IMG/VR virus record: IMGVR_UViG_3300025769_001069
Coordinates: 1 to 20,711 of that record
Source of the DNA: a virus
Strand: one strand, 5' to 3'
DNA: 20,711 nt
The notes under the pieces were generated by a model that was given only the letters and a program-made list of their open reading frames with translations, did no database searches and was not told where the DNA came from. Positions 1,077-16,975 of this stretch are shown one piece after another; position 1 is the first letter of the stretch, and the number at the start of each line of letters is the position of its first letter. A program made the translations under genes and the position numbers.

Positions 1077-4000
1077 TTATTCTCCTTTTATAGCATTGAT
1101 TTCAGTTTGTAAAGCCTCTACTTTCGCAGAGAGTTCTTTGACAGCATTGACTAGATACCAAGTCATGTTGTCTGGGTCTACTCGTAATGCACCAGTAGTT
1201 TCTTCTTTTACCATATCAGGTAAAACTTCTTGTATCTCTTGAGCAATCACACCAAGCTGTGTGCCTTGTTTATCAATTACACTTTCCTTAGGCAAGTCTG
1301 TAACTTCATCTTTAGTTCTATATTCAAAGTTTTTAACTTGTACTTGTTTAATTGCATCAAGACCAGTATTATTATCTACAATGTTTTTCTTGAGCCTTCT
1401 ATCAGATACAGTAGCCCATGATGATGAATTGTTACCTTGATAAACACTACCGCCAGTACCACCAGCAACAATATATCCTGTATTAGAACCTTTACCTGCG
1501 CCACCATTAGCAGCACTTAGCATAAATTCCCCAGTAACACCAGAGCCAGATGCTGCAGCACCATACCCAACATAAGTATTAAAACTACCAGTGGTTAATG
1601 TACTACCAGCTGACTGCCCCAGAGCAATATTATATTGACCTGTGGTAACACTTGGCATAGTATTCCCACCAAAAGCCATATTCTGAATTCCTGTGGTGTT
1701 GTTTTTTAATGAATCATATCCAACAGCAGTATTCCATACAATTGCAGAGCCTGTATTATTAAAACTTTGTAATGAGCTAGTACCTATTGCTACTAATCTT
1801 TGTCCAGTTGTATTAAGATATAAAGCTCTGTAGCCAATAGCAAGGTTGTGACTACCAGTCGTGTTTCTTGAACCAGCTCCAGCACCAATAAATGTTAATC
1901 TACCACCTGTTGTATTACTATGACCAACAGCATATCCAGCACCGCTTTCAAGAGGCCCTATAAATGTATTTGATTCGCCTGTAGTGTTGTTTTGTCCAGC
2001 AGCCATACCCACAGCACAATTGTTTTCTGCAGTATTATCATACAATGCCTGATAACCCACTGCTGTGTTATAATTTGCAGTGGTGTTGGAGTAAAGGGCT
2101 TGTTTACCTAAAGCAGTGTTTCTTATTCCAGTATTATTATATAGGGCTTGGTAGCCAACAGCTGAATTATCATCTGCAGTGGTGTTAAAGTAGAGGGCGT
2201 TATAACCAACAGCTACATTAGAACCGCCTGTAGTATTAGATGTTAATGCGGCACGACCAACTGCTGTGTTGTAGTTACCTGTCGTATTATTATGTCCAGC
2301 AAGATAACCAATAAAATGACCATATAAACCTGTGGTTGAATCTTCACCAGCACCATAACCTATAGCAACCATTTGGTTGTTAGTATAAGAATAACCAGCT
2401 CGATGACCTATAGCCACATTACGTTCACCAGTTGTAAGTCGTAGTGCGTAATGACCAACGGCTACATTAAAATCACTAGAGACATTATCTGCTAAAGCAA
2501 CATTACCGATAGCAACATTAGAGTCACCACCTGTATTATCTTCTAATGCTCTATTCCCAATGGCTGTATTGTTAAATCCAACTGTATTGCTAGATAAAGA
2601 TTGATAACCTACAGCTGTGTTTTCATATCCAGTAGTGTTAGATTCTAGTGCTTCACGACCTATAGCTACATTATTATTGCCACTTGTATTAGAAAGCATC
2701 GCTTCAAAACCCACTGCTGTATTATTATCAGCTGTATTAGCTGCTAATGCTTGTTTACCAACAGCTGTGTTTGCTCCTCCAGTTGTAGCAGAGCTTAACG
2801 CCTCAGAACCAACTGCTGTATTACTTGAGCCTGATGTAACTAATACTCCAGCATTATATCCAACAGCAGTGTTGTCATTAGTTGTAGAATTTGCCAATGC
2901 TTGATAACCTACAGCTGTAAGTCTTGCTCCTGTTTGATTATCATATAACGCTTGATACCCAACAGCAGTATTATTAAATGCAGTGGTGTTGGAGTAGAGG
3001 GCTTCTCTACCTAATGCTGTATTATAATTACCAGTGGTGTTGGAGTAGAGTGCAGTGTATCCTAATGCGGTGTTATATGAGCCTGTTGTGTTTGATTGAG
3101 CTGCACTACGACCTATAAATACATTCTGCGTTCCTGATGTATTGTCTTGACCAGAGCCTTGACCAAGTGCAGTGTTGTTTGGAGCTGTGTTGTTTAATAA
3201 AGAGTGGAATCCTACAGCAGTATTGTATCCAGCACTTGTATCTGAATATAATGCTTTATAACCAACAGCGGTACTATTTGTACCAGTCGTATTACTATAC
3301 AATGACTGATAACCAACAGCTGTGTTGTTAGATGCAATGGTGTTACTTGTTAATGCTTGCATACCAACAGCTACATTATTGCTTCCTGTAGTATTTGAAA
3401 ATAAAGAATGTCTGCCAACAGCGGTATTTTCAAGACCTGAAATATTATTAAACATAGATGATTTTCCAACAGCAGTGTTCCAATATCCTGTTGTAGTGTT
3501 TCTTAAAGCATTAGCACCAAGTGCTGTTTGGTCATTTCCAGTAGTTATGCTTAATAGTGCATTAATACCTAAACCTGTATTATTAGATAAGCTGCTTGCA
3601 CCTTTACCTACAGTGAGTCCGTTGATGGTGGCATCTGTAGAGAATGTTTGTGCTGCGGTAAATGTTTGTACGACATCTAGTTTTGCTGTGTCTGCATCGT
3701 ATGCTTGGACTGTTGAACCAATGTCTGAATCAAGTACAGCATCTGATCCAAGAGCTGTATTCACGTCAGCAGCAGATAAAGTGACTGCACCTGTTCTAGT
3801 ATTGAATGAGGTTACCGCACCAGATGCAGTAAAAGCAGCTGCGTCCCATGCACTACCTGTCCATACATAAAGTTGATCACCTGTTGTGTTCCAATATAAA
3901 GCACCTGTGAGTAATGCATCACCATCATTATCTGTAGCGGGTGCAGAAGCCTTAGCTCCTAGATAACGATCATCAAATGAGTCATAACTAGCAGCAGCAG

Positions 4001-5216
4001 CGGCAGCTGATGCAGCAGCAGCAGAAGAAGATGTTGAGTTAGAAACAGTTAGCCAAGTTGATCCTGTATAAACATACATATCATTAGCAACAGTATTAAA
4101 ATACAATGCACCTGTAACGAGAGCATCGCCATCATTATCAACAGTTGGCGCTGAACTTTTCTGTCCTAAATATCTGTCATCAAAATCATCATATGAGGCA
4201 GCAGCAGCCGTTGCGCTATTGGAAGCATCACTTGCGTAGGTAGCCGCAGAAGTTGCACTTGACCCCGCAGAGGTTGCTGATGAAGCAGCAGCCGTTGCAC
4301 TTGTTGATGCATTGCTTGCACTTGTAGCCGCAGCACTTGCTGAGGTAGATGCATTTGTGGCTGAGGTTGAAGCAGACGATGCGCTTGATGACGCAGCACT
4401 TGCTTGTGTAGTAGCCGTTGTAGCACTCGTTGCAGCATTGCTTGCTGAGGTTGATGCAGAGGTTGCGCTCGTAGCGGCAGCGGTAGCACTTGATGCAGCG
4501 GCAGTTGCACTTGAAGCGGCAGCAGAAGCTGAAGAAGCCGCAGAAGCTGCGTCTACAACTAAATCCCATTTAGCGTAATCAGCATTACTTGTAAGTGGTA
4601 ATGAACCTGATGATGTATGTGATGTTAAACAAATATAAATGTTGTCATTGGTTGTATCTTTAACAATATCTAATTGAACATAAGCTGTGCTTGCTGCCCA
4701 ATCACCACGCCAGTTACCCACACTCTGCACAGCTGTTGGATTACCATCAGAATCAAATGATAAAAATTTATTCGCACGTGTTGTATTAACAGGTAAAACC
4801 ATGTCAACTGTGGTTGGATCAGTATTAGGCGCGCGTAATGATCGATCAGCTTGTTCTTGTACTTGCTGAACAAAAATAGTTTGACTATCAAATTCATCAT
4901 TAAGAGAGGTAGCAAAGAGTGGGCCACCAGTAGTAAAGTCTGTTGATCTCTCAATAGTTCTATCACCAATAATGGTAATACGATCAGAAGCAGTAGGTGT
5001 GCTAGGAACATTAGTGCCTACAACAATCGTGACAGAACCTGTGCCATCACCATTGATGGTAACAGTATAGTCTGTCGTAAGTGTCAGTTCAGTTGTATTA
5101 AAATAAACAGCAATATCAGTTTGTGCAAGCACCTCAAATGCAAATGCATATGGGCCTACACCTGATGAGCCTGTGTATACTATACGTCTAGTGGTTGATG
5201 AGATGTCTATAGCCAT
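1077..5216 (-). CDS. Tail fibre: T7 gp17-type head, heptad stalk, about 40 short repeats and S74 chaperone
   Basis: This 1379-residue protein is predicted to be the receptor-binding fibre. Residues ~1-165 match the T7 gp17 virion-attachment domain (RRIVYTGSSGVG near the start, DRSLRAP near residue 128). Residues ~168-220 form a small Trp/Tyr/Cys module (WAASTAYVQLDIV) like a carbohydrate-binding module. Residues 224-342 are 17 unbroken Ala/Ser/Thr heptads. Two copies of an ~50-residue FDDRYLG module follow (341-390 and 410-459). From ~546 to ~1231 there are about 40 units of ~17 residues, consensus NTAVGYQALYSNTTG. Residues 1271-1379 are a Peptidase_S74 intramolecular chaperone beginning SDRRLKKNI. 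Ser1271 and Lys1276 sit where the autocleavage dyad of this family lies, so the chaperone is probably cut off after trimerisation. AGAGGA precedes the ATG. T7 gp17 is 553 residues, so this fibre is far longer. Confidence 0.93.
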   Translation of the reverse strand: MAIDISSTTRRIVYTGSSGVGPYAFAFEVLAQTDIAVYFNTTELTLTTDYTVTINGDGTGSVTIVVGTNVPSTPTASDRITIIGDRTIERSTDFTTGGPLFATSLNDEFDSQTIFVQQVQEQADRSLRAPNTDPTTVDMVLPVNTTRANKFLSFDSDGNPTAVQSVGNWRGDWAASTAYVQLDIVKDTTNDNIYICLTSHTSSGSLPLTSNADYAKWDLVVDAASAASSASAAASSATAAASSATAAATSATSASTSASNAATSATTATTQASAASSSASSASTSATNASTSASAAATSASNASTSATAAASSATSAGSSATSAATYASDASNSATAAAASYDDFDDRYLGQKSSAPTVDNDGDALVTGALYFNTVANDMYVYTGSTWLTVSNSTSSSAAAASAAAAAASYDSFDDRYLGAKASAPATDNDGDALLTGALYWNTTGDQLYVWTGSAWDAAAFTASGAVTSFNTRTGAVTLSAADVNTALGSDAVLDSDIGSTVQAYDADTAKLDVVQTFTAAQTFSTDATINGLTVGKGASSLSNNTGLGINALLSITTGNDQTALGANALRNTTTGYWNTAVGKSSMFNNISGLENTAVGRHSLFSNTTGSNNVAVGMQALTSNTIASNNTAVGYQSLYSNTTGTNSTAVGYKALYSDTSAGYNTAVGFHSLLNNTAPNNTALGQGSGQDNTSGTQNVFIGRSAAQSNTTGSYNTALGYTALYSNTTGNYNTALGREALYSNTTAFNNTAVGYQALYDNQTGARLTAVGYQALANSTTNDNTAVGYNAGVLVTSGSSNTAVGSEALSSATTGGANTAVGKQALAANTADNNTAVGFEAMLSNTSGNNNVAIGREALESNTTGYENTAVGYQSLSSNTVGFNNTAIGNRALEDNTGGDSNVAIGNVALADNVSSDFNVAVGHYALRLTTGERNVAIGHRAGYSYTNNQMVAIGYGAGEDSTTGLYGHFIGYLAGHNNTTGNYNTAVGRAALTSNTTGGSNVAVGYNALYFNTTADDNSAVGYQALYNNTGIRNTALGKQALYSNTTANYNTAVGYQALYDNTAENNCAVGMAAGQNNTTGESNTFIGPLESGAGYAVGHSNTTGGRLTFIGAGAGSRNTTGSHNLAIGYRALYLNTTGQRLVAIGTSSLQSFNNTGSAIVWNTAVGYDSLKNNTTGIQNMAFGGNTMPSVTTGQYNIALGQSAGSTLTTGSFNTYVGYGAAASGSGVTGEFMLSAANGGAGKGSNTGYIVAGGTGGSVYQGNNSSSWATVSDRRLKKNIVDNNTGLDAIKQVQVKNFEYRTKDEVTDLPKESVIDKQGTQLGVIAQEIQEVLPDMVKEETTGALRVDPDNMTWYLVNAVKELSAKVEALQTEINAIKGE
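1524..3581 (-). repeat. Array of about 40 fibre repeats, 17 codons (51 bp) each
   Basis: Hand alignment of fibre residues ~546-1231 gives about 40 consecutive units. Most are 17 residues, several are 16, and a few carry insertions (for example the unit containing GPLESGAGYAVG). The core is N-T-A-V/I/L-G followed by an Ala/Leu position and N-T-T-G. The small-residue/Gly pattern resembles YadA/Hep_Hag adhesin head repeats, which form trimeric left-handed beta-rolls. That structural analogy is inference. Confidence 0.85.
3840..3989 (-). repeat. Second copy of a 50-residue fibre module
   Basis: Fibre residues 410-459 begin SYDSFDDRYLG, contain DNDGDAL and TGALYWNT, and end with YVWTGSAW. They align over their full length with the copy at 4047-4196. 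An Ala-rich spacer separates the two copies. Confidence 0.8.
4047..4196 (-). repeat. First copy of a 50-residue fibre module
   Basis: Fibre residues 341-390 begin SYDDFDDRYLG, contain DNDGDAL and TGALYFNT, and end with YVYTGSTW. The module directly follows the heptad stalk. The partner copy is at 3840-3989. Both look like small beta modules that are recurrent in marine phage fibres; their function is not known to me. Confidence 0.8.
4191..4547 (-). repeat. 17 tandem Ala/Ser/Thr heptads (21-bp period) in the fibre stalk
   Basis: Fibre residues 224-342 divide without a break into 17 seven-residue units such as TAAASSA, TSASTSA and SNAATSA. Nearly every unit ends in Ala, and Ala is very frequent at the third position. 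A strict seven-residue period with small residues at fixed positions fits an alanine-packed trimeric coiled coil acting as a stalk. The DNA is GC-richer than its surroundings because of the Ala codons. Confidence 0.8.
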
Positions 5217-5247: not shown

Positions 5248-7689
5248 TTAATCTGGTGTCAATGCTTCTAAGTCTGGAGCGCGTTTAGGTAATGTTCGTC
5301 CTGGACTCCACCAATATTTCTGCTTATTTCTTCTTTCCCTACGTCTTGCATTGCGTTTTATAGCCCCCTTAAGGTTAGGATCAATAGCTATAGCTAATTG
5401 TTCTAGCCCTAGCCTATTAAATGCTAAGTGTCCATACCATAATGTTTGTCCAGGAGTATATTTTCTTAACAATGAATATAGTTCATAGCTAAAGTTTGTA
5501 TCTTCACCATGAGCCATATCATATAAGTTGCCAAAAGTTAAACCCATAACATCTGTTGTAGCATCAAAACCTGGGCCAAAAATATTTGTGCCATACCCTT
5601 GAACTGTGTTAGTAAATATATCACCTAAGAAACCTACGCCGCCACCACGCGTAAATGCTTTTCCCCAAAACTCAGCATTAGTCATATCTTCTGGATCACG
5701 ACCTCTTGCTAAGTTATGAAGCTGCTCTGATATAGCCCCAAGCATTGTTGCCATGCCAATAAATTTAGTAACATTAATAGCCTTAGCCGCATTATGTCCA
5801 AACTCCATACCAAAGTGTTTAGTTCTTGGAGTAGCCTCTTTAAATAATCTGTATAGATATTGAATGACGACTGATACAGAAAAGTTTTTAAACATAAATG
5901 CAGTTCTTGTTAGCTCGCCTCCAATCGTTCCCCTAGGTTCTGCGCCATACATTTTGGCTGTCGTTTTAATATTACCTACGATAACAGCATCATTTTGTAA
6001 GTTGCTTATCATCTGTAGGTAGCGCGTGCCAATATCCATATCAAGCTCATCAATTTCTTTATAGCGTAAATATTTTAATCCTTGAAACTCTTTTGTTTTG
6101 GCCTGACTTATAACACCCCAATTTTTATCTAAACCATAAGTTTTTAATGTTTGCTGAAACATGGGATCAAGCTCATCAAAAGATTTACCTAATTGTTTGC
6201 CAGCATAAATCATAAACTCTTGAGCAAATGCAGCGCGCCCACCATCAGTAAATGCTGATAGTCCAGAAGCTCTAATTACAACATCAGACAATATTTGCGA
6301 CCAAGCTGGGCCAGCTACCTCACCAGCAAACTTGGCTTTTTTTTGAGCAAAATCAAGCATGTTGTCAAAGATCACACCGCTTTCAAGCAAAAATTGTTTT
6401 CTATCTTCAGCGCCAACAAACTTAAATATGTTTTTAATGTGTCTTGATATGGCTGATTTTTGCTTCATACCGACACGCATAGCGGTATTCATTTGTGTAT
6501 TAAAATCACCTAGCGCTGATAACACAGCGCCACCAAGATAAACGGCTGTAAAAGTATTTCGAGTTGCACTTGCAATGTCTGCAAATAATTGATGATCAGT
6601 TAATAATTGTCTGCGTTTAAATACGTCATAATGGTTTTGAATATTTGTGAGTGGAGTAGTTTTAACTGTACCATCTTTTCTGTGAGCATCGTTCATTTTG
6701 CTAACTAACATATTGAGTGTCTGTTGTGGCTTAGGCCCTAAGATATGTAACTCTGCAATATCACGTGACATTTGGTCAATATAATTAATCATACTAATAG
6801 TAATATCGCCATCACCAAATTTATTATGATACTTTAACCATGCCTCGCCATCTTTAAATTGTAAGATGCGATGCTGTGACATTGTTTTTGACCAAGCTCC
6901 TTTGCGATTACTATATCCGCCATTAGAGATAGAGTCATAAATATCATTGAGTAATGTTTCAAGTTTTAATGGAGTAATAGGCTGCCCTGTATCAAAATCA
7001 ACCATACGGTCAGTAGCAAGTAATGGCTGAATAAACTCTTTCCACTCATCAACGCCACCTTTAAGATTGCGCAACTTTAATTGTGAATGTGTTTGTGGTA
7101 AGTAATGTTCAAGTTTAGGAATATGCGCGCCTTGTCTATTTTTTTCTAATCTTAAAAATTCAGCTACCTCTTTCCATGCTTGCGCTAATATTTTAGCATC
7201 AGCATTTTTACTTTCTATTCCCCAAATTTCTTTGACAACGTCTTGTATGTCAACGTTATTTTTGCCAACACCTTGCATGCCAGAACCTCTCGCGCCAAAC
7301 AAACCACGCTTGCGGTATTGCATAACAAACTTATTCATCATACCAATACCACGCTTGCGGATAGCTTCTGCATAATTTTCTAGATTAAGATGCCTCATAT
7401 ATCCTTGAGGATCAGGAGCAATAAGGTTTAAAATGCCATCGCCCCAACGACCATTACCTTCAACAAACTTTTCAATATCAAGAAGCCTGGTTGCAAAAAC
7501 TTTAGCAGCCCTTAAGTTATCTGCCTTCTTAATTTTTTGCATAACAGTTAATGCTTTTTCTGTAGCCTCAACAGCTTGGTCAGTTGCACCACCAAACTTC
7601 AGTAAATATTGTTGATAAAGCTCTTGGCCTTGAGCCTTTTCTTCATCACTAAATTTACTGTTATTAGTTATGCAATCAAAATTTTTCAT
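5248..7689 (-). CDS. Large internal virion (ejection) protein, T7 gp16 C-terminal-like by position
   Basis: This 813-residue, mainly helical protein lies just before the tail fibre, the position of T7 gp16. The probable role is ejection into the cell envelope to help form the DNA-translocation channel. Around residues 590-613 there is a TRTAFMFKNFSVSVVIQYLY stretch, reminiscent of the FK-SFP-like segment common near the end of large phage internal proteins. Hydrophobic helices follow (KFIGMATMLGAI), and the C-terminus is strongly basic (RNARRRERRNKQK). No transglycosylase motif is seen, unlike the N-terminus of T7 gp16. A TTG codon two codons upstream could extend it, but AAGGA lies exactly 6 bases before this ATG, and the ATG overlaps the upstream TAA as TAATG, so I chose the ATG. 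Confidence 0.8.
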   Translation of the reverse strand: MKNFDCITNNSKFSDEEKAQGQELYQQYLLKFGGATDQAVEATEKALTVMQKIKKADNLRAAKVFATRLLDIEKFVEGNGRWGDGILNLIAPDPQGYMRHLNLENYAEAIRKRGIGMMNKFVMQYRKRGLFGARGSGMQGVGKNNVDIQDVVKEIWGIESKNADAKILAQAWKEVAEFLRLEKNRQGAHIPKLEHYLPQTHSQLKLRNLKGGVDEWKEFIQPLLATDRMVDFDTGQPITPLKLETLLNDIYDSISNGGYSNRKGAWSKTMSQHRILQFKDGEAWLKYHNKFGDGDITISMINYIDQMSRDIAELHILGPKPQQTLNMLVSKMNDAHRKDGTVKTTPLTNIQNHYDVFKRRQLLTDHQLFADIASATRNTFTAVYLGGAVLSALGDFNTQMNTAMRVGMKQKSAISRHIKNIFKFVGAEDRKQFLLESGVIFDNMLDFAQKKAKFAGEVAGPAWSQILSDVVIRASGLSAFTDGGRAAFAQEFMIYAGKQLGKSFDELDPMFQQTLKTYGLDKNWGVISQAKTKEFQGLKYLRYKEIDELDMDIGTRYLQMISNLQNDAVIVGNIKTTAKMYGAEPRGTIGGELTRTAFMFKNFSVSVVIQYLYRLFKEATPRTKHFGMEFGHNAAKAINVTKFIGMATMLGAISEQLHNLARGRDPEDMTNAEFWGKAFTRGGGVGFLGDIFTNTVQGYGTNIFGPGFDATTDVMGLTFGNLYDMAHGEDTNFSYELYSLLRKYTPGQTLWYGHLAFNRLGLEQLAIAIDPNLKGAIKRNARRRERRNKQKYWWSPGRTLPKRAPDLEALTPD

Positions 7690-10142
7690 TAACAATCCTT
7701 AAGTTCTTTAATAGCTTTTTCGTCACCATCTAAATCTTTAACCATATCATCAAATGATTTTTGCGATATAACTACGCCATCAGCAGAGGTTTCTACAAAC
7801 ATTTTTTCTTGTTTAATATTTTCATACCCACTTGATTCTAATTCATCAAACTGGTCTTTAACGTCAGTAGCTAATGCTTCTATCTCTGCATCTAGACTTC
7901 CGTCTGTGGTGTTGTCATATTTGGCGAGCTGTTCTGGGCCATTTTGGTCTGCGTATTTTGATGCTGAATTATTCGTCGTCGCAACATCATCAGCGAATCC
8001 AAGTTGGCTAGCTGATAACCTAGTGTAAGCGCTTGATGAAATTCGCTCTTGGACAGCCCGTTGAAATTCTTTAATTCCTTGCGCGAGGTCGATCTCTCCT
8101 CTAGCGAATTTTCTGGAAATTGCTGTAAGGTCATCGGCGATGTCTCCAGCATGGTTTGCGTTGTATTTGATCGTTTCGATGATTTGGCCATATAAATCCT
8201 TTCGTTGTGCATTGTTAAGTTTATCAAGTTTGTTGCCAAACTTTTCAATTAAATCTGAATCATTAACTAAAGTTGTTAATACTTTTTTATTAGCGTTCAT
8301 GCTTGATAATGTGCTAGACAATATCTTTGATCTTTCCTTAAATAAAGTTTCAGCAATCATATCGTCCGCAAACAATCCAGCTTGATCTACTTCTTTAAAT
8401 CCAGCTAATGCTGCTTGAGCTACAATGCTTTCAGCTTCTATTAAATTGTCAGGTTTAGTTTTCATAAGCAAGTTTAATACTGCAATCTGCTCATCTCTCC
8501 CAGAAACATAGTTTCCTACAAACTGTGCATAACGCTCTGGCACTAATCCTTTATTAACTATATCAAGCGCATCATCAGATAACTTGCTTAAGCCTAAACC
8601 ATATTGTCTTAATTTGCTTTTAGGCGGCAACATTCTATTTAAAGTATCTGGATTCATTTTAAATACTTTAGCAGCATCAACTGCTGTGCCTGATCCTTCT
8701 GCAATATTCTTGGCAGCAGCTAATGTTCTAACAGTATTAACTTGAAATCCATCTTTAGCGTCATAAACCATTGCTATAATTTTAGGTTTTGGCCCTTTAT
8801 AATTTTTATCACCTTTAAGTCGCTTAGCTAAATTAACGCGTTGATGTCCATCGGCTACAACATATTTTCCTTTTTCATTTTTGTATAATACAGCAATACC
8901 AGCAAAGGCTTGATTCCACTCTTGCACACCCTTAAGTGTTTCTAGCATGCCCAACTCATCAGCGCCACCTTTAAACTGAAATGTCTTAGCATCTATCTCA
9001 ATATCATCAGGCTCAACAATAGCGATTTGCATATGATGCTGGTCGTGATACAGCTCGTCTAAAATTTTAACCTGTTCGTCTTTAGGTAGTTTTGAAAAAT
9101 CATCATTAGCAACCGCCTCTTTGGCTTTGTTTAATTTAGCAATAAAGCTTGCATCATTAGGATCGTTAGCATTAACATTATGCTCAAGCGTTGCATTATT
9201 AACGTCATCGAGTAATACTCCACTATCAGCATCAGCATTGTCTTTTGATGCTATTATTTTTGGATTACCAACCTCATCAGACACTTGCTTAGATTTATAC
9301 TCAGATAACTTATTAATAATGTTTTTCTTTAATACATTAGATGCGCCAGGCAATTTAATAAGTGTCTCCATAAGCAGCCCTAAAGCAAATGAACCGCCTC
9401 CAGCAGCTACAAGGTTATCTCTATATTGTGTATCGCCATAGTCTATGCCTAATTGTTTATATAAATCTTTAACATCATCTTGTATATATGCTTCAGCTCC
9501 TACACCAGCAGCTACATCAATAAGCAATCTAGAAAGCATGCCTGAGCCGTAAGTAGCTTGAAACGGGATTGATGCAAGCACAGCCCCTACGTTAGCAGGA
9601 TCAGTTGCAGCCGCACCAAAACTACCTCCCATTGATGCAAACCAATCGCCCCAGCCGTGCGTTCTTTCTTCAGCATACAGTGTATTTTCTCTAATCTTAT
9701 TGGCTTCAGCTACAAGCATTTGCTGTAGTTTCATTGGCGTAAAATCACGCACTTCTGATTCTGGATCAAATAAATCTAAATTTTCCCCTACAAAAGAAAC
9801 AATAGCGTCTATGTCTTTATCAAATCGTTCTGTTTGGCTCAGGCCATCATACGGATCGGGAACGTCATATCCAGCAATACTAGAATAAATGTCTGCCTCA
9901 CCGCCCATAGAGGCTGTTGGCGCATCAAGATGATAGGCTGGATTAGCAAACTTTTTACCTGTAACTTTATAAATCTCATCTACAATAGGCTGTAAAATTT
10001 TTTGATTAATTTGGTATTCAGAATCAGATCGATTTAAAAAATATTGATCATCATAAAACGCATCAAACTGGTCAGCCTCACCAGCGGGCAAGGTTTGCGC
10101 CTCAGTTAATTGCTTTGAGTAGTCTGATATAAACTTTCCCAT
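7689..10142 (-). CDS. Internal virion protein with embedded ParB/Srx-like domain
   Basis: This 817-residue protein lies between the gp15-like and gp16-like ejection proteins, with TAATG overlaps at both ends, so it is probably a virion or ejection protein. The N-terminal ~160-270 region has small-residue hydrophobic helices (DPANVGAVLASIPF, GGSFALGLLMETL), typical of large internal proteins. Residues ~372-480 resemble a ParB/sulfiredoxin-fold domain: a QIAIVEPDDIEID strand region, a Lys/Tyr-rich strand, then VVADGHQRVNLAKRLKG. Asp431-Gly432-His433-x-Arg435 is the DGHxR signature used by this fold for nucleotide or phosphate binding. The C-terminal part is helical. Known ParB-fold proteins include CTPases, nucleases and virion-delivered antirestriction factors such as those related to P1 DarB. 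The activity here is not established by sequence reading. Confidence 0.8.
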   Translation of the reverse strand: MGKFISDYSKQLTEAQTLPAGEADQFDAFYDDQYFLNRSDSEYQINQKILQPIVDEIYKVTGKKFANPAYHLDAPTASMGGEADIYSSIAGYDVPDPYDGLSQTERFDKDIDAIVSFVGENLDLFDPESEVRDFTPMKLQQMLVAEANKIRENTLYAEERTHGWGDWFASMGGSFGAAATDPANVGAVLASIPFQATYGSGMLSRLLIDVAAGVGAEAYIQDDVKDLYKQLGIDYGDTQYRDNLVAAGGGSFALGLLMETLIKLPGASNVLKKNIINKLSEYKSKQVSDEVGNPKIIASKDNADADSGVLLDDVNNATLEHNVNANDPNDASFIAKLNKAKEAVANDDFSKLPKDEQVKILDELYHDQHHMQIAIVEPDDIEIDAKTFQFKGGADELGMLETLKGVQEWNQAFAGIAVLYKNEKGKYVVADGHQRVNLAKRLKGDKNYKGPKPKIIAMVYDAKDGFQVNTVRTLAAAKNIAEGSGTAVDAAKVFKMNPDTLNRMLPPKSKLRQYGLGLSKLSDDALDIVNKGLVPERYAQFVGNYVSGRDEQIAVLNLLMKTKPDNLIEAESIVAQAALAGFKEVDQAGLFADDMIAETLFKERSKILSSTLSSMNANKKVLTTLVNDSDLIEKFGNKLDKLNNAQRKDLYGQIIETIKYNANHAGDIADDLTAISRKFARGEIDLAQGIKEFQRAVQERISSSAYTRLSASQLGFADDVATTNNSASKYADQNGPEQLAKYDNTTDGSLDAEIEALATDVKDQFDELESSGYENIKQEKMFVETSADGVVISQKSFDDMVKDLDGDEKAIKELKDC
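7696..7700 (-). promoter_or_regulatory. Ribosome binding site fixing the start of the 813-residue protein
   Basis: AAGGA sits in the last codons of the upstream gene and is 6 bases from the ATG at 7687-7689. It is adjacent to an alternative TTG at 7693-7695, too close to serve it. It supports the ATG start and the TAATG coupling. Confidence 0.6.
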
Positions 10143-12517
10143 TACTGCATGAGCCTAATGGTTTCAACCTCTGGCATTATATCTCTATTATCAAATCTCT
10201 TGCTTGCATACTCATCAAGCCCTGGATTTTTAGCTAAAATTAATTCATATAAATTAGCCATGTCGATGTAAATTGGATTGCCGTCTGGATCACCAAAAGC
10301 TAATTCTTCGTTGCCAAACAATCTAAATATTTCGCCAGACAACATAGCTTTGGTGTTATCAACAAATTTAAGGTTGCTAGTAACAAATTGATCATAAGAA
10401 TATGGCTGACTACCACGTCCTATATTTTCTATATTATTACCATCACGATCTACTAGGTTTGCTTCAATATCCTCTATTGTTGCAAATCTAAATAAATTAT
10501 CTTCAAAATCATCACGTTTAATGTTGGAAGGTATAGCATGTTTTACTCCTTTATATTCAACAATACCTCCATACTCGCCTTGTTGTCCAGCAGCTAATTT
10601 AAGCGCTTTTTCATACAGGTCAGTATCAAACTCATCAAAGTCTTTTGTTTTTAAAGCATAATAAATTTTAATTGCTGATTCAGTAACAATGCCACGTTCA
10701 TTTTGCGTAAAAGCATCACCTAAAACATCAGCTTCAGTTGTTCTCATGTCTGACGTTTCCATTACATATTTAGCTTTATCACCAGCAACGCCTAAATCTA
10801 TAAGGTTGCCAACGGCTAATAACTCACTAGCTTCCATGCTTGGATTTGGCGATCTCATAGCATCATTCATTAAGTTACCAATGTGCGCTAATGAAGTATT
10901 TTTTTCGCCAAGCTCTTGGAATATTTGATATGAATTACCGCCAAACGTATCAACTAAATACCCAGCATATTGCATTTGTTGCCCTACTTTTTCTGTCGGT
11001 GTCAGGCTGGGTGTTTGTGTGATTTGATTAAATTGATTGCTATAATAACTAACTTCTTCTTTGCTAAATAAATTAGCATTAGCTAGTCCAAAATCTTCAG
11101 CAAATTTTTCTACAACAGCTTTTCGTTTAGCAATCTTACGCGCCATACCATCTCGATACTCTGGATCAATAAGCATATTAGAGTCTACATATAGTGGCTC
11201 AATTTCTGATTTGTATTTAATATTTTTCTTAAGGTATTCAATAGGAGTTTCTTCTATTTCCTTAATAACTTGTTTTCTCATCTTATCAGCATGCTGCAAT
11301 ATAGCATCTTCATAGATAGTATTTTGTTCACCGCCATATTGTGTTTGTATTTTTGTCATAGCTGCATCAAAACCAGCTTCGTTATAAGGCGAACTAGAAT
11401 ATACAACTTCATTAATTAATTGCTTACCAAAAATAATGTCAGCTTGAATTTGTTGTTTGTCGTCAAAATCATATCCAGACAGTTGTGACAAATCAGTCAA
11501 GTTTCCATTGCTAACAGTTTTATCCATCTCTGATAATGAAAATGTTAGTGTTTTGTTTGATACGCTAGAACTAATTTCTAGTTTTTCCATTGCTGTGCTA
11601 ACAGCAGATTGTAATGAGTTTTGTCTATCTGGTAATAAATTAGCAAAATAATTTGTGTAGCGGCCAGCCTTAGTTTCATTTTGCATTATTCTTTCAACTT
11701 CTTCTTTAGAGGCTCCAGCAGCAAAATACTCTTTAGCAATTTGATCAGCAACAGCTGCTTCTTCAACTTTATCTAATTTACTTCTAAATGCGTTCATGTT
11801 TTCTGTTTGTTTGCCAGTAATAGCAAACGCATCAAACGCGTCTTCCTCAAGCATATCTCGATGAGCTAGTAATAAGGTTGGATCGGTATTGTTATAAACA
11901 AATTGAGTGTAATTTTTAGCACCAGCAGTAATAAATTTATCAACAGTAAATTGCGCTTCTTTTTCTGCTCGATCACCTAACTCTTTTAAAATAGCTTTAT
12001 AGTTTGTTTTTGTGTAAGTTGTTGCAGAAGTTTGGAACTTCATGCCTTCATCTGGATCTATATTAAATACAACATTAGCATAGCCTTTTGTAGGAGCTTC
12101 TAATTCTGCTCGTATTTGTTGTGGATCAGTAATCTTTCCTTCTTTAACTTGCTGTAATACATTTTGTTGATGGTTTTCTAACTCACCTAGCAAATCAATA
12201 CGTGATTGATGTCCATACATTTTTTTAAGCGTTTTATTGTATGTTTTGCCGCCTTGTAAAAATTGATTAACAGCACTTTCACCATTACGCTCTGCATTTT
12301 GATAGTCTTTAATTGATAGTGGGTTATTAATACTAAACTCAATACCTTTTTCGATGGCGTATTTTCCAGCTTCTTCTGCCGTATAAGCTGTCAATTGATC
12401 TAACATAGACTGCATAGATTTACTTGCCGTAATTGCAGCATCTATATTTTCTGTGCCAGCCATAGGCACACCTTCGGTTAAATACTTTTGCCTTTCATAT
12501 TTGGGTAATTCAGCCAT
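10142..12517 (-). CDS. Internal virion protein, T7 gp15-like
   Basis: This 791-residue protein is close in length to T7 gp15 (747) and sits directly after the gp14-like gene, matching T7 order 14-15-16. It is almost entirely predicted helical and rich in Glu, Gln, Asn and Lys, with no signal peptide and no obvious enzyme motif. A Gln/Glu-rich helical stretch near residue 115 (ELENHQQNVLQQVKEGKI) is typical of core-forming internal proteins. The expected role is part of the internal core that is ejected and lines the channel across the periplasm. Family assignment rests on position, length and composition more than on a diagnostic motif. The start overlaps the upstream stop as TAATG; the nearest GGAG is about 12 bases away, so coupling is likely. 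Confidence 0.75.
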   Translation of the reverse strand: MAELPKYERQKYLTEGVPMAGTENIDAAITASKSMQSMLDQLTAYTAEEAGKYAIEKGIEFSINNPLSIKDYQNAERNGESAVNQFLQGGKTYNKTLKKMYGHQSRIDLLGELENHQQNVLQQVKEGKITDPQQIRAELEAPTKGYANVVFNIDPDEGMKFQTSATTYTKTNYKAILKELGDRAEKEAQFTVDKFITAGAKNYTQFVYNNTDPTLLLAHRDMLEEDAFDAFAITGKQTENMNAFRSKLDKVEEAAVADQIAKEYFAAGASKEEVERIMQNETKAGRYTNYFANLLPDRQNSLQSAVSTAMEKLEISSSVSNKTLTFSLSEMDKTVSNGNLTDLSQLSGYDFDDKQQIQADIIFGKQLINEVVYSSSPYNEAGFDAAMTKIQTQYGGEQNTIYEDAILQHADKMRKQVIKEIEETPIEYLKKNIKYKSEIEPLYVDSNMLIDPEYRDGMARKIAKRKAVVEKFAEDFGLANANLFSKEEVSYYSNQFNQITQTPSLTPTEKVGQQMQYAGYLVDTFGGNSYQIFQELGEKNTSLAHIGNLMNDAMRSPNPSMEASELLAVGNLIDLGVAGDKAKYVMETSDMRTTEADVLGDAFTQNERGIVTESAIKIYYALKTKDFDEFDTDLYEKALKLAAGQQGEYGGIVEYKGVKHAIPSNIKRDDFEDNLFRFATIEDIEANLVDRDGNNIENIGRGSQPYSYDQFVTSNLKFVDNTKAMLSGEIFRLFGNEELAFGDPDGNPIYIDMANLYELILAKNPGLDEYASKRFDNRDIMPEVETIRLMQ

Positions 12518-16132: not shown

Positions 16133-16975
16133 TTAAGATTCACGACATGTGAGTTGAACAATACCCTCAGCATCGATAGCAACCGCAGTAGCAGAAAGAA
16201 GTGTATTCACAAGGAATGAAGTCTTTTCTGGTACGTAGTTGATTTCTGTGCGAGGCGCGATACCTTCAGCATAGCCCATTGAGTCTTTGTGGAATGCCCA
16301 GATTGTTCTGTCTAAAGAACCATCAATAGCAAGACCACCCTCAGAGCGATCACCTAATACATGGAATTTAAAGCCTAAGAATGTATCTACTTCACCAGAT
16401 ACTAAAGCTTTAACTGTATTGTAATCAGATGATGTTACAGCTGTTTCTGAAAGTAAAGAAGCTAATGAGTTAGCATGGATAACCATATGACGATCCTGTG
16501 GAGGAACGTTACCTTTATCCAATAATTTTTTAGCTTCACGTAGTTTAGCTACGTTTAAGTTTGTATCAGTACCACCAATGTCATTAGAAACTGTTAATGA
16601 TGTTGATGATGCTGTAAGTGCATCAAGAATAAGTTGATCTTGTCTACGACCGATTGCGTTCGCTAAAACTTGAACGAGCTCTTGTCTTTCGTCAAAATTA
16701 ACTTTTTGTTGCATAAAGATGTCAGAATACTCAGCAGCATTCCAATCTTCAAGTGTTGCAGTTACTTGTGAAAAACTTACATTAAGTGGAGTAACGTCAG
16801 TTTGTGGTACACGAAGTGTAGCTGAACCTTTACCTACTTTAGGGAATTTCACAACTTCGCCCTCAACGCCGCGTCTCATGCGTGTAGCACCAACTAATTG
16901 TGATTTAGCTTGGTACGCCTGTTTAACTTCGGCATCAAAGAGCGTAACAAAAGCATTAGATAAACCAATAGCCAT
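16133..16975 (-). CDS. Major capsid protein
   Basis: This 280-residue protein lies between the scaffold and decoration-like genes, the place of T7 gene 10. The sequence has the features of an HK97-fold coat: an N-terminal helix (LSNAFVTLFDAEVKQAYQA), GVEGEVVKFPKVG, a beta hinge with VSFSQVTATLEDWNAAEYSD, and FDERQELVQVLANAIGRRQD (the long spine helix region). Later come a P-domain-like HMVIHANSLASLLSE and a C-terminal beta tail. T7 gp10A is 345 residues, so this coat is compact. A strong AAGGAG lies 6 bases before the ATG, and a structured 173-bp leader precedes it. I saw no frameshift signal for a gp10B-like extension at the end of the gene. Confidence 0.9.
   Translation of the reverse strand: MAIGLSNAFVTLFDAEVKQAYQAKSQLVGATRMRRGVEGEVVKFPKVGKGSATLRVPQTDVTPLNVSFSQVTATLEDWNAAEYSDIFMQQKVNFDERQELVQVLANAIGRRQDQLILDALTASSTSLTVSNDIGGTDTNLNVAKLREAKKLLDKGNVPPQDRHMVIHANSLASLLSETAVTSSDYNTVKALVSGEVDTFLGFKFHVLGDRSEGGLAIDGSLDRTIWAFHKDSMGYAEGIAPRTEINYVPEKTSFLVNTLLSATAVAIDAEGIVQLTCRES

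Follow-up and report, generated by a model that had tools for sequence, protein, structure and literature searches.

A predicted ejected protein of a marine short-tailed phage carries a ParB-type domain in an exchangeable effector slot

Why would a phage protein that is probably ejected together with the genome carry a DGHxR motif of the ParB/sulfiredoxin (Srx) type, and what could such a domain do in the infected cell? This question is raised by a stretch of viral DNA of 20,711 nucleotides (IMG/VR record IMGVR_UViG_3300025769_001069), which we refer to as the window. A first-pass annotation, made from the letters alone, had placed DGHxR at residues 431-435 of an 817-residue protein and had assigned positions 8702-9029 to a ParB/Srx-like domain. 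The motif is present (ADGHQR; 8838-8852) within the context VVADGHQRVNLAKRL (residues 428-442), and the assigned span corresponds to residues 372-481, the predicted ParB N-domain. The protein and its neighbors are organized as follows:

7689-10142, minus strand: ejection-slot protein with a predicted ParB core, 817 residues, epsilon15 gp16 slot (open reading frame, slot kept in relatives, N-terminal homology)
9108-10142, minus strand: conserved helical ejection N-terminus, residues 1-345 (hmmsearch with an N-terminal profile, predicted helices)
8702-9029, minus strand: predicted N-domain of the ParB/Srx nucleotide-binding type, residues 372-481 (AlphaFold2, Foldseek, VIA, invariance)
8838-8852, minus strand: motif D431-G432-H433-Q434-R435 (translation of the open reading frame)
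8393-8690, minus strand: predicted helical DNA-binding (helix-turn-helix, HTH) domain of the ParB/Noc type, residues 485-583 (match to 6y93, collinear ParB profile alignment)
8037-8392, minus strand: predicted long-helix domain with GN.L and RKGP.SDAL motifs, residues 584-702 (conservation, predicted helices)
7689-7808, minus strand: conserved C-terminal tail, residues ~779-817 plus stop codon, predicted beta hairpin and acidic helix (model, conservation)
5248-7695, minus strand: phrog_684 virion protein, epsilon15 gp17-like (PHROG E 1.6e-132)
10142-12517, minus strand: upstream ejection-slot protein, 791 residues, epsilon15 gp15 slot, cysteine-free (open reading frame, slot)

Within the 817-residue protein, hydropathy marks a hydrophobic segment at about residues 244-262. 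The N-domain spans QFK (389-391), DGHQR and the start of KNIAEG (478-483), with strands predicted at 372-376, 381-383, 417-421, 427-431 and 455-461. The only cysteine is C817, the last residue (codon 7692-7694); the phrog_684 protein, which probably starts with the ATG at 7689, likewise has a single cysteine, Cys6 (MKNFDC; codon 7672-7674). A Pfam search found no further domain beside the ParB core, the tail motif had no match elsewhere in the cassette, and the N-terminal module, searched as part of a larger model, returned no convincing fold match. Farther along the window, positions 1077-5216 encode a 1379-residue fibre with many NTTG..NTAVG-type repeats, whose C-terminal DRRLKKNI stretch, as read from the sequence, resembles intramolecular chaperones. 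An identical 817-residue protein is encoded by IMGVR_UViG_3300025759_000479 (L001, L006; 29331 bases), so that the virus can be traced beyond the window.

Searches of Pfam, NCBIfam and PHROGs with the 817-residue protein gave no significant named ParB match, and PDB sequence searches returned nothing relevant. At the cut-offs of TIGR00180 and Pfam ParB_N the window protein did not match, and the best relative reached 16.5 bits compared to the required 58.45; a TIGR00180 search of the window's own record was also negative. An AlphaFold2 model of residues 350-725 (pLDDT 89.2, pTM 0.82) was built from alignment A2 of 55 non-redundant relatives with about 29-39% identity, which also underlies our conservation counts. 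With this model, the top Foldseek matches in the PDB were Noc/ParB chains only (E 1e-5, probability 1.00), and a full-length model gave identical top matches. VIA-align returned Z 9.2 for Myxococcus xanthus ParB with CTPgammaS, Z 9.0 for PadC and Z 6-7 for sulfiredoxins; Z scores in the range of 7-9 are of moderate strength, and large rmsd values occur in several cases, perhaps owing to a different angle between the two subdomains. The Noc DNA-binding domain alone (6y93) aligned to model residues 135-234 with Z 7.8 and 3.4 Å over 96 of 105 residues. A profile alignment with chromosomal ParBs was weak (E 0.05, single target), yet collinear, placing DGHQR over AGERR (GERR) and KNIAEG over ENLQRE, followed by the HTH.

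As the fold matches cover both domains, the protein appears to hold both ParB domains rather than an Srx-like one alone. The ParB/Srx fold of the first-pass annotation thus stands, with DGHxR in the expected place, but the HTH-type domain that follows had been missed. We are nearly certain that the middle of the protein has the ParB/Srx fold. According to the model, this middle is a divergent ParB that consists of a nucleotide-pocket N-domain, an HTH DNA-binding domain and a conserved helical bundle (residues 584-702), in which G636, N637 and G666 are invariant among the relatives. A mistaken fold assignment, with DGHQR arising by chance, is extremely improbable: all curated models did stay below threshold, but the model is of high confidence, its top matches across both domains are exclusively ParB proteins, and the relative in phage P-SCSP1g matches TIGR00180 weakly but collinearly (E 0.0055) and has weak PHROG matches to ParB. 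One PHROG hit needs a comment. phrog_21, named 'portal protein', matches only residues 381-677 of the window protein; as its match to the ParB family is confined to the ParB-type region (~1013-1330 of 1362), the name is probably misleading here.

We then asked how strictly the putative pocket is kept. Q389, G432, H433, Q434, R435, A439, N479 and D489 are invariant in all 55 relatives, and position 391 is always Lys or Arg. One of our two search patterns itself contained GHxR, which called for an ascertainment control. The other, independent pattern was matched by 28 of 79 loci; GHxR occurs in all 28, 17 of which miss the GHxR-containing pattern. In addition, the relatives in phage isolates, found by plain tblastn, carry GHQR or GHNR. 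The conservation of G432, H433 and R435 among homologues (55/55; control 28/28) is accordingly not a product of the search. From order and spacing, Q389-F-K391 may be the equivalent of the ParB Q-P-R motif.

The Glu of the ParB GERR motif is catalytic. At this position all 55 relatives have His, and at the box III position before the invariant N479, where ParB has Glu, 47 of 55 have Lys. The canonical CTPase residues of ParB/Noc, the GERR Glu and the Glu-Asn pair of box III, are therefore not found as such in the window family, and ordinary CTP hydrolysis should not be assumed. His at the position of the GERR Glu is not disqualifying, since a plasmid-type ParB found by TIGR00180 (L136) reads GHRR. 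Nevertheless, judged from these residues, use of CTP by the domain is doubtful. Compared to the Noc/ParB CTPase clamps (Spo0J, Noc, KorB; PDB 7nfu, 7bnr, 6sdk), the window protein would thus share the fold, the order of N-domain and HTH, and the positions of G-x-x-R and the box III Asn. It differs in the His in place of the GERR Glu, in the Lys that most relatives have for the box III Glu, and in its setting inside an ejection-slot protein of a phage; it also stays under all ParB sequence thresholds. The HTH region shows hardly any excess of basic residues (12 Lys and Arg versus 11 Asp and Glu).

The ParB family to which the window protein belongs is widespread and unannotated. We found 338 relatives in IMG/VR and 35 loci in GTDB genomes, many of them alphaproteobacterial. 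Among isolates, tblastn identified relatives in Ruegeria phage 45A6 (3912 aa), Dunaliella viridis virus SI2 (792 aa), Nohivirus S31C1 (1484 aa) and 17 Prochlorococcus P-SCSP1 phages (2563 aa in P-SCSP1g), every one annotated as hypothetical; in the P-SCSP1 papers we found no proteomics on the ParB protein. In nearly all short-form loci, the gene is flanked by nozzle/gp14-type genes on one side and the phrog_684 gene on the other; homologues of the latter occur, among others, in epsilon15 (gp17), phiV10, VP2 and pelagiphages. Homology assigns the slot to epsilon15 gp16, whose place is between those of gp15 and gp17. With a profile built on residues 1-345, hmmsearch finds (E 2e-26 to 1e-6) the slot proteins of VP2, K296, Vibrio 1.182, Tr60_Ab31, HTVC203P, Greip and Skadi-1, and the ParB profile matches none of 14 isolate slot proteins. 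This homology to slot proteins lacking this ParB indicates that the ejection N-terminus is conserved and the middle can be exchanged. As far as sequence comparison goes, the slot protein is modular, with a conserved ejection N-terminus, a middle that is this ParB, a DdrB-type ParB or neither, and a conserved tail.

The neighbors had been described as gp15-like and gp16-like in the sense of phage T7. This holds for their position, but not by homology: hmmsearch with the ParB and partner profiles gave no match to T7 gp14, gp15 or gp16, a level below which distant homology is possible, and the sequence evidence makes the slot epsilon15 gp16-type and not T7 gp15/gp16. The statement that T7 gp15 and gp16 have no such domain agrees with the profile search. 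Epsilon15 gp16 and gp17 occupy the same slots and share the homologous partner (phrog_684), but no ParB domain is detected in epsilon15 gp16.

What else can fill the slot? In Acinetobacter phage MD-2021a it holds a DdrB-ParB (PF18763) in a protein that also matches SLT weakly, and two alphaproteobacterial genomes have a DdrB-ParB in the slot, beside a phrog_684 homologue. The DdrB-like family shares with the window family this slot and a late-gene, virion-structural context. Membership of the window protein in DdrB-ParB was considered but is not supported: PF18763 matched P1 DdrB at 2.1e-39 but neither the window protein nor four relatives, and hhalign of the window family against a shallow DdrB profile gave no match. 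DdrB relatives carry an SGNGR-type motif in the alignment, as opposed to DGHQR, whose role SGNGR may play. Two versions of the ParB/Srx fold thus seem to have entered the slot, DdrB by published description and the window family by its predicted fold. P1 DdrB, like the window protein as placed by its gene context, is a virion-associated protein with a ParB/Srx-superfamily domain; it was detected in virions with 39 peptides and is listed as aiding addition of DarB to the capsid (PMC9024508). The first-pass comparison with P1 DarB-type proteins needs correction accordingly, as the ParB-bearing virion protein of P1 is DdrB and not DarB (PMC5512222; PMC9024508), and the window domain lies outside the DdrB-ParB family by sequence.

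In the window protein, the ParB core stands alone between ejection N-terminus and tail. C-terminal to the core, 12 of 23 longer ParB proteins hold a zeta-toxin domain, two ART-PolyVal and one RelA_SpoT. The zeta-toxin-type cargo, e.g. in L009, L010 and L015, is a toxin-like load in a predicted ejected protein. Giant relatives have LPD37, LPD38, MuF_C, ART, helicase, methyltransferase and acetyltransferase domains, the set known from the polyvalent proteins that Iyer et al. described (PMC5512222). In these long relatives, LPD37, LPD38, MuF_C, ART-PolyVal, helicase and methyltransferase domains surround the same ParB core, whereas the window protein does not combine several effector domains.

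A second feature of the slot protein is its single cysteine at the very end. A cysteine lies within the last six residues in 35 of 36 complete non-redundant relatives shorter than 1700 aa, where 0.24 would be expected from composition, and is nearly always the sole one in 753-1538 residues. In the protein that follows, the first cysteine is residue 6 or 7, and 34 of 35 such proteins have exactly one; their start was set by an MSFxxC-type motif, a choice that favors a neat position but leaves the count unbiased. Both terminal cysteines are present in all 35 ParB loci in which both proteins were seen, with exactly one in each protein in 30 on a stricter reading. Overall, the lone cysteine of the slot protein sits 1-8 residues from the C-terminus and that of its partner near the N-terminus, and extra cysteines are rare. 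By comparison, among 167 other open reading frames of at least 300 aa in these loci, a single cysteine fell into the last eight residues in none and into the first twelve in three.

The same pair occurs beyond the ParB family. In epsilon15, the sole cysteine of gp16 is C629, six residues from its C-terminus, and that of gp17 is C5. The pair was found in 14 of 14 further phages, namely epsilon15, phiV10, Tyrion, YeP5, VP2, K296, Vibrio 1.182, HTVC203P, Skadi-1, Greip, Tr60_Ab31, HB2107, Acinetobacter MD-2021a and MT835618; a later search for partner homologues yielded mostly phiV10-like near-duplicates, which we did not count as independent. The DdrB-ParB slot proteins (L326, 3923-6202; L325, 2420-5743; L227, 2279-5140) also bear a C-terminal cysteine. 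In S31C1, C1484 is the last residue and the next protein, missed by the partner profile, has C3. Prophage loci, searched with a partner profile without the N-terminus, mostly agree, and the exceptions are degraded or unclear (e.g. L312, L313, L315). An overlapping nucleotide (start) signal was considered as cause of the terminal cysteines and ruled out, as the spacing of the two genes varies from -20 to more than +1000 nt, with one gene in between in MD-2021a.

Complete proteins longer than 1700 aa behave differently: five of six are cysteine-free and none has a cysteine near the C-terminus. Several incomplete giants are cysteine-free as well, but L067 has five and L071 seven cysteines. Within the sequence stretches covered, the giants have no neighboring phrog_684 gene. 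T7 gp15 and gp16 are cysteine-free, and so is the very large, ejected virion RNA polymerase of the N4 type, for which passage through tail and periplasm has been given as the reason (PMC3715699, PMC2784036). The latter is unrelated to the window protein in sequence and has no terminal cysteine pair. Taken together, the conserved slot, the epsilon15-type N-terminal homology and the depletion of cysteines make ejection of the 817-residue protein likely.

Against the N4-like absence of cysteines as background, a lone cysteine at each of the facing ends suggests a disulfide between consecutive ejection proteins. Judged from the positions, such a bond probably joins the C-terminus of the slot protein to the N-terminus of its partner; we found no report of disulfides in ejection proteins among the open-access papers searched. 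In its broad form, the idea would be that many kinds of short-tailed phages eject a pair of consecutively encoded proteins in covalently linked form, with a variable effector (ParB, DdrB-ParB, zeta toxin, ART or none) disulfide-linked to a conserved carrier and set free by reduction in the cytoplasm, while the giants use a single, mostly cysteine-free polypeptide. We consider this general scheme about as probable as its opposite.

Terminal cysteines also occur in other virion proteins. In gp14-like small ejection proteins, the sole cysteine is often residue 2 (T7 gp14, epsilon15 gp14, phiV10, YeP5, Tyrion, P-SCSP1g; loci L214, L215, L216, L221, L222 and L005), although those pelagiphages and Vibrio phages that we checked lack it. 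In the group of the major capsid protein (window 16133-16975), 10 of 11 relatives have a cysteine at most six residues from the C-terminus. Both cases speak for a different reading, in which the cysteines form no joint and each is kept for a reason of its own (homodimer disulfides, contact with the portal or a third protein, a terminal motif), their pairing being incidental. We regard this as rather unlikely, because the cysteines occupy the facing termini of proteins encoded one after the other, are rarely accompanied by further ones and co-occur in every locus that shows both proteins, because most giant relatives without a separate partner are cysteine-free, and because the variable spacing, once with an intervening gene, argues against a nucleotide signal.

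Our best explanation overall, to which we give an even chance, is that the window encodes an ejection-slot effector with a ParB middle, disulfide-joined to the next protein, whose ParB part binds the entering DNA. The 817-residue protein would be packaged in the virion and would exit the head together with the DNA or ahead of it, forming one unit with the protein encoded at 5248-7695. The disulfide between its C-terminal cysteine and the N-terminal cysteine of the partner would probably hold this unit together, forming in the virion or the periplasm and being broken in the cytoplasm, where the ParB part would arrive. There, ahead of all gene expression, it may bind the incoming phage DNA like a nucleotide-dependent clamp. 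Binding of nucleotide and of DNA on the entering genome is the most likely role of the ParB part, by which it may protect, condense or nick DNA, signal or, as the first-pass annotation also suggested, counter defence; DNA binding taken by itself could go either way, and CTP-driven clamping, the most speculative element, is improbable.

Two other functions have to be weighed. The domain could be a nucleotide-regulated DNase or nickase delivered early against host or rival DNA, as has been suggested by Iyer et al. for ParB domains of the DdrB-like kind (PMC5512222). Other ParB/Srx proteins (Osa, ParB-methylase) are reported DNases (PMC5512222), and both DdrB-ParB and toxin-like cargo fill the same slot in other phages; however, the ParB-type DNA-binding domain points to binding rather than cutting, and DdrB-ParB is not detectably the same family, so that we hold this to be unlikely. 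Marginally better, but still improbable, is a structural or assembly-related role, in which the domain loads or orders ejection proteins in the head and the pocket is vestigial or a packaging switch. The listing of P1 DdrB as an aid to DarB addition, with its 39 peptides (PMC9024508), and the acceptance of proteins without a detected ParB by the slot would fit such a role, but the pocket residues are kept in 55 of 55 relatives, beyond the needs of a scaffold, and the domain is dispensable for the slot.

In this marine short-tailed phage, a predicted ejected protein has a ParB domain, as modelled, in a swappable effector slot. Proteins that enter with the phage genome act ahead of any response by host or phage gene products, and a widespread, unannotated ParB family at the ejection slot is a candidate for early protection or handling of the entering DNA. 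From the paired lone cysteines, a simple rule may be drawn for the coupling and, perhaps, the release of ejection proteins, a rule open to direct testing in the epsilon15-type phages already in laboratories.
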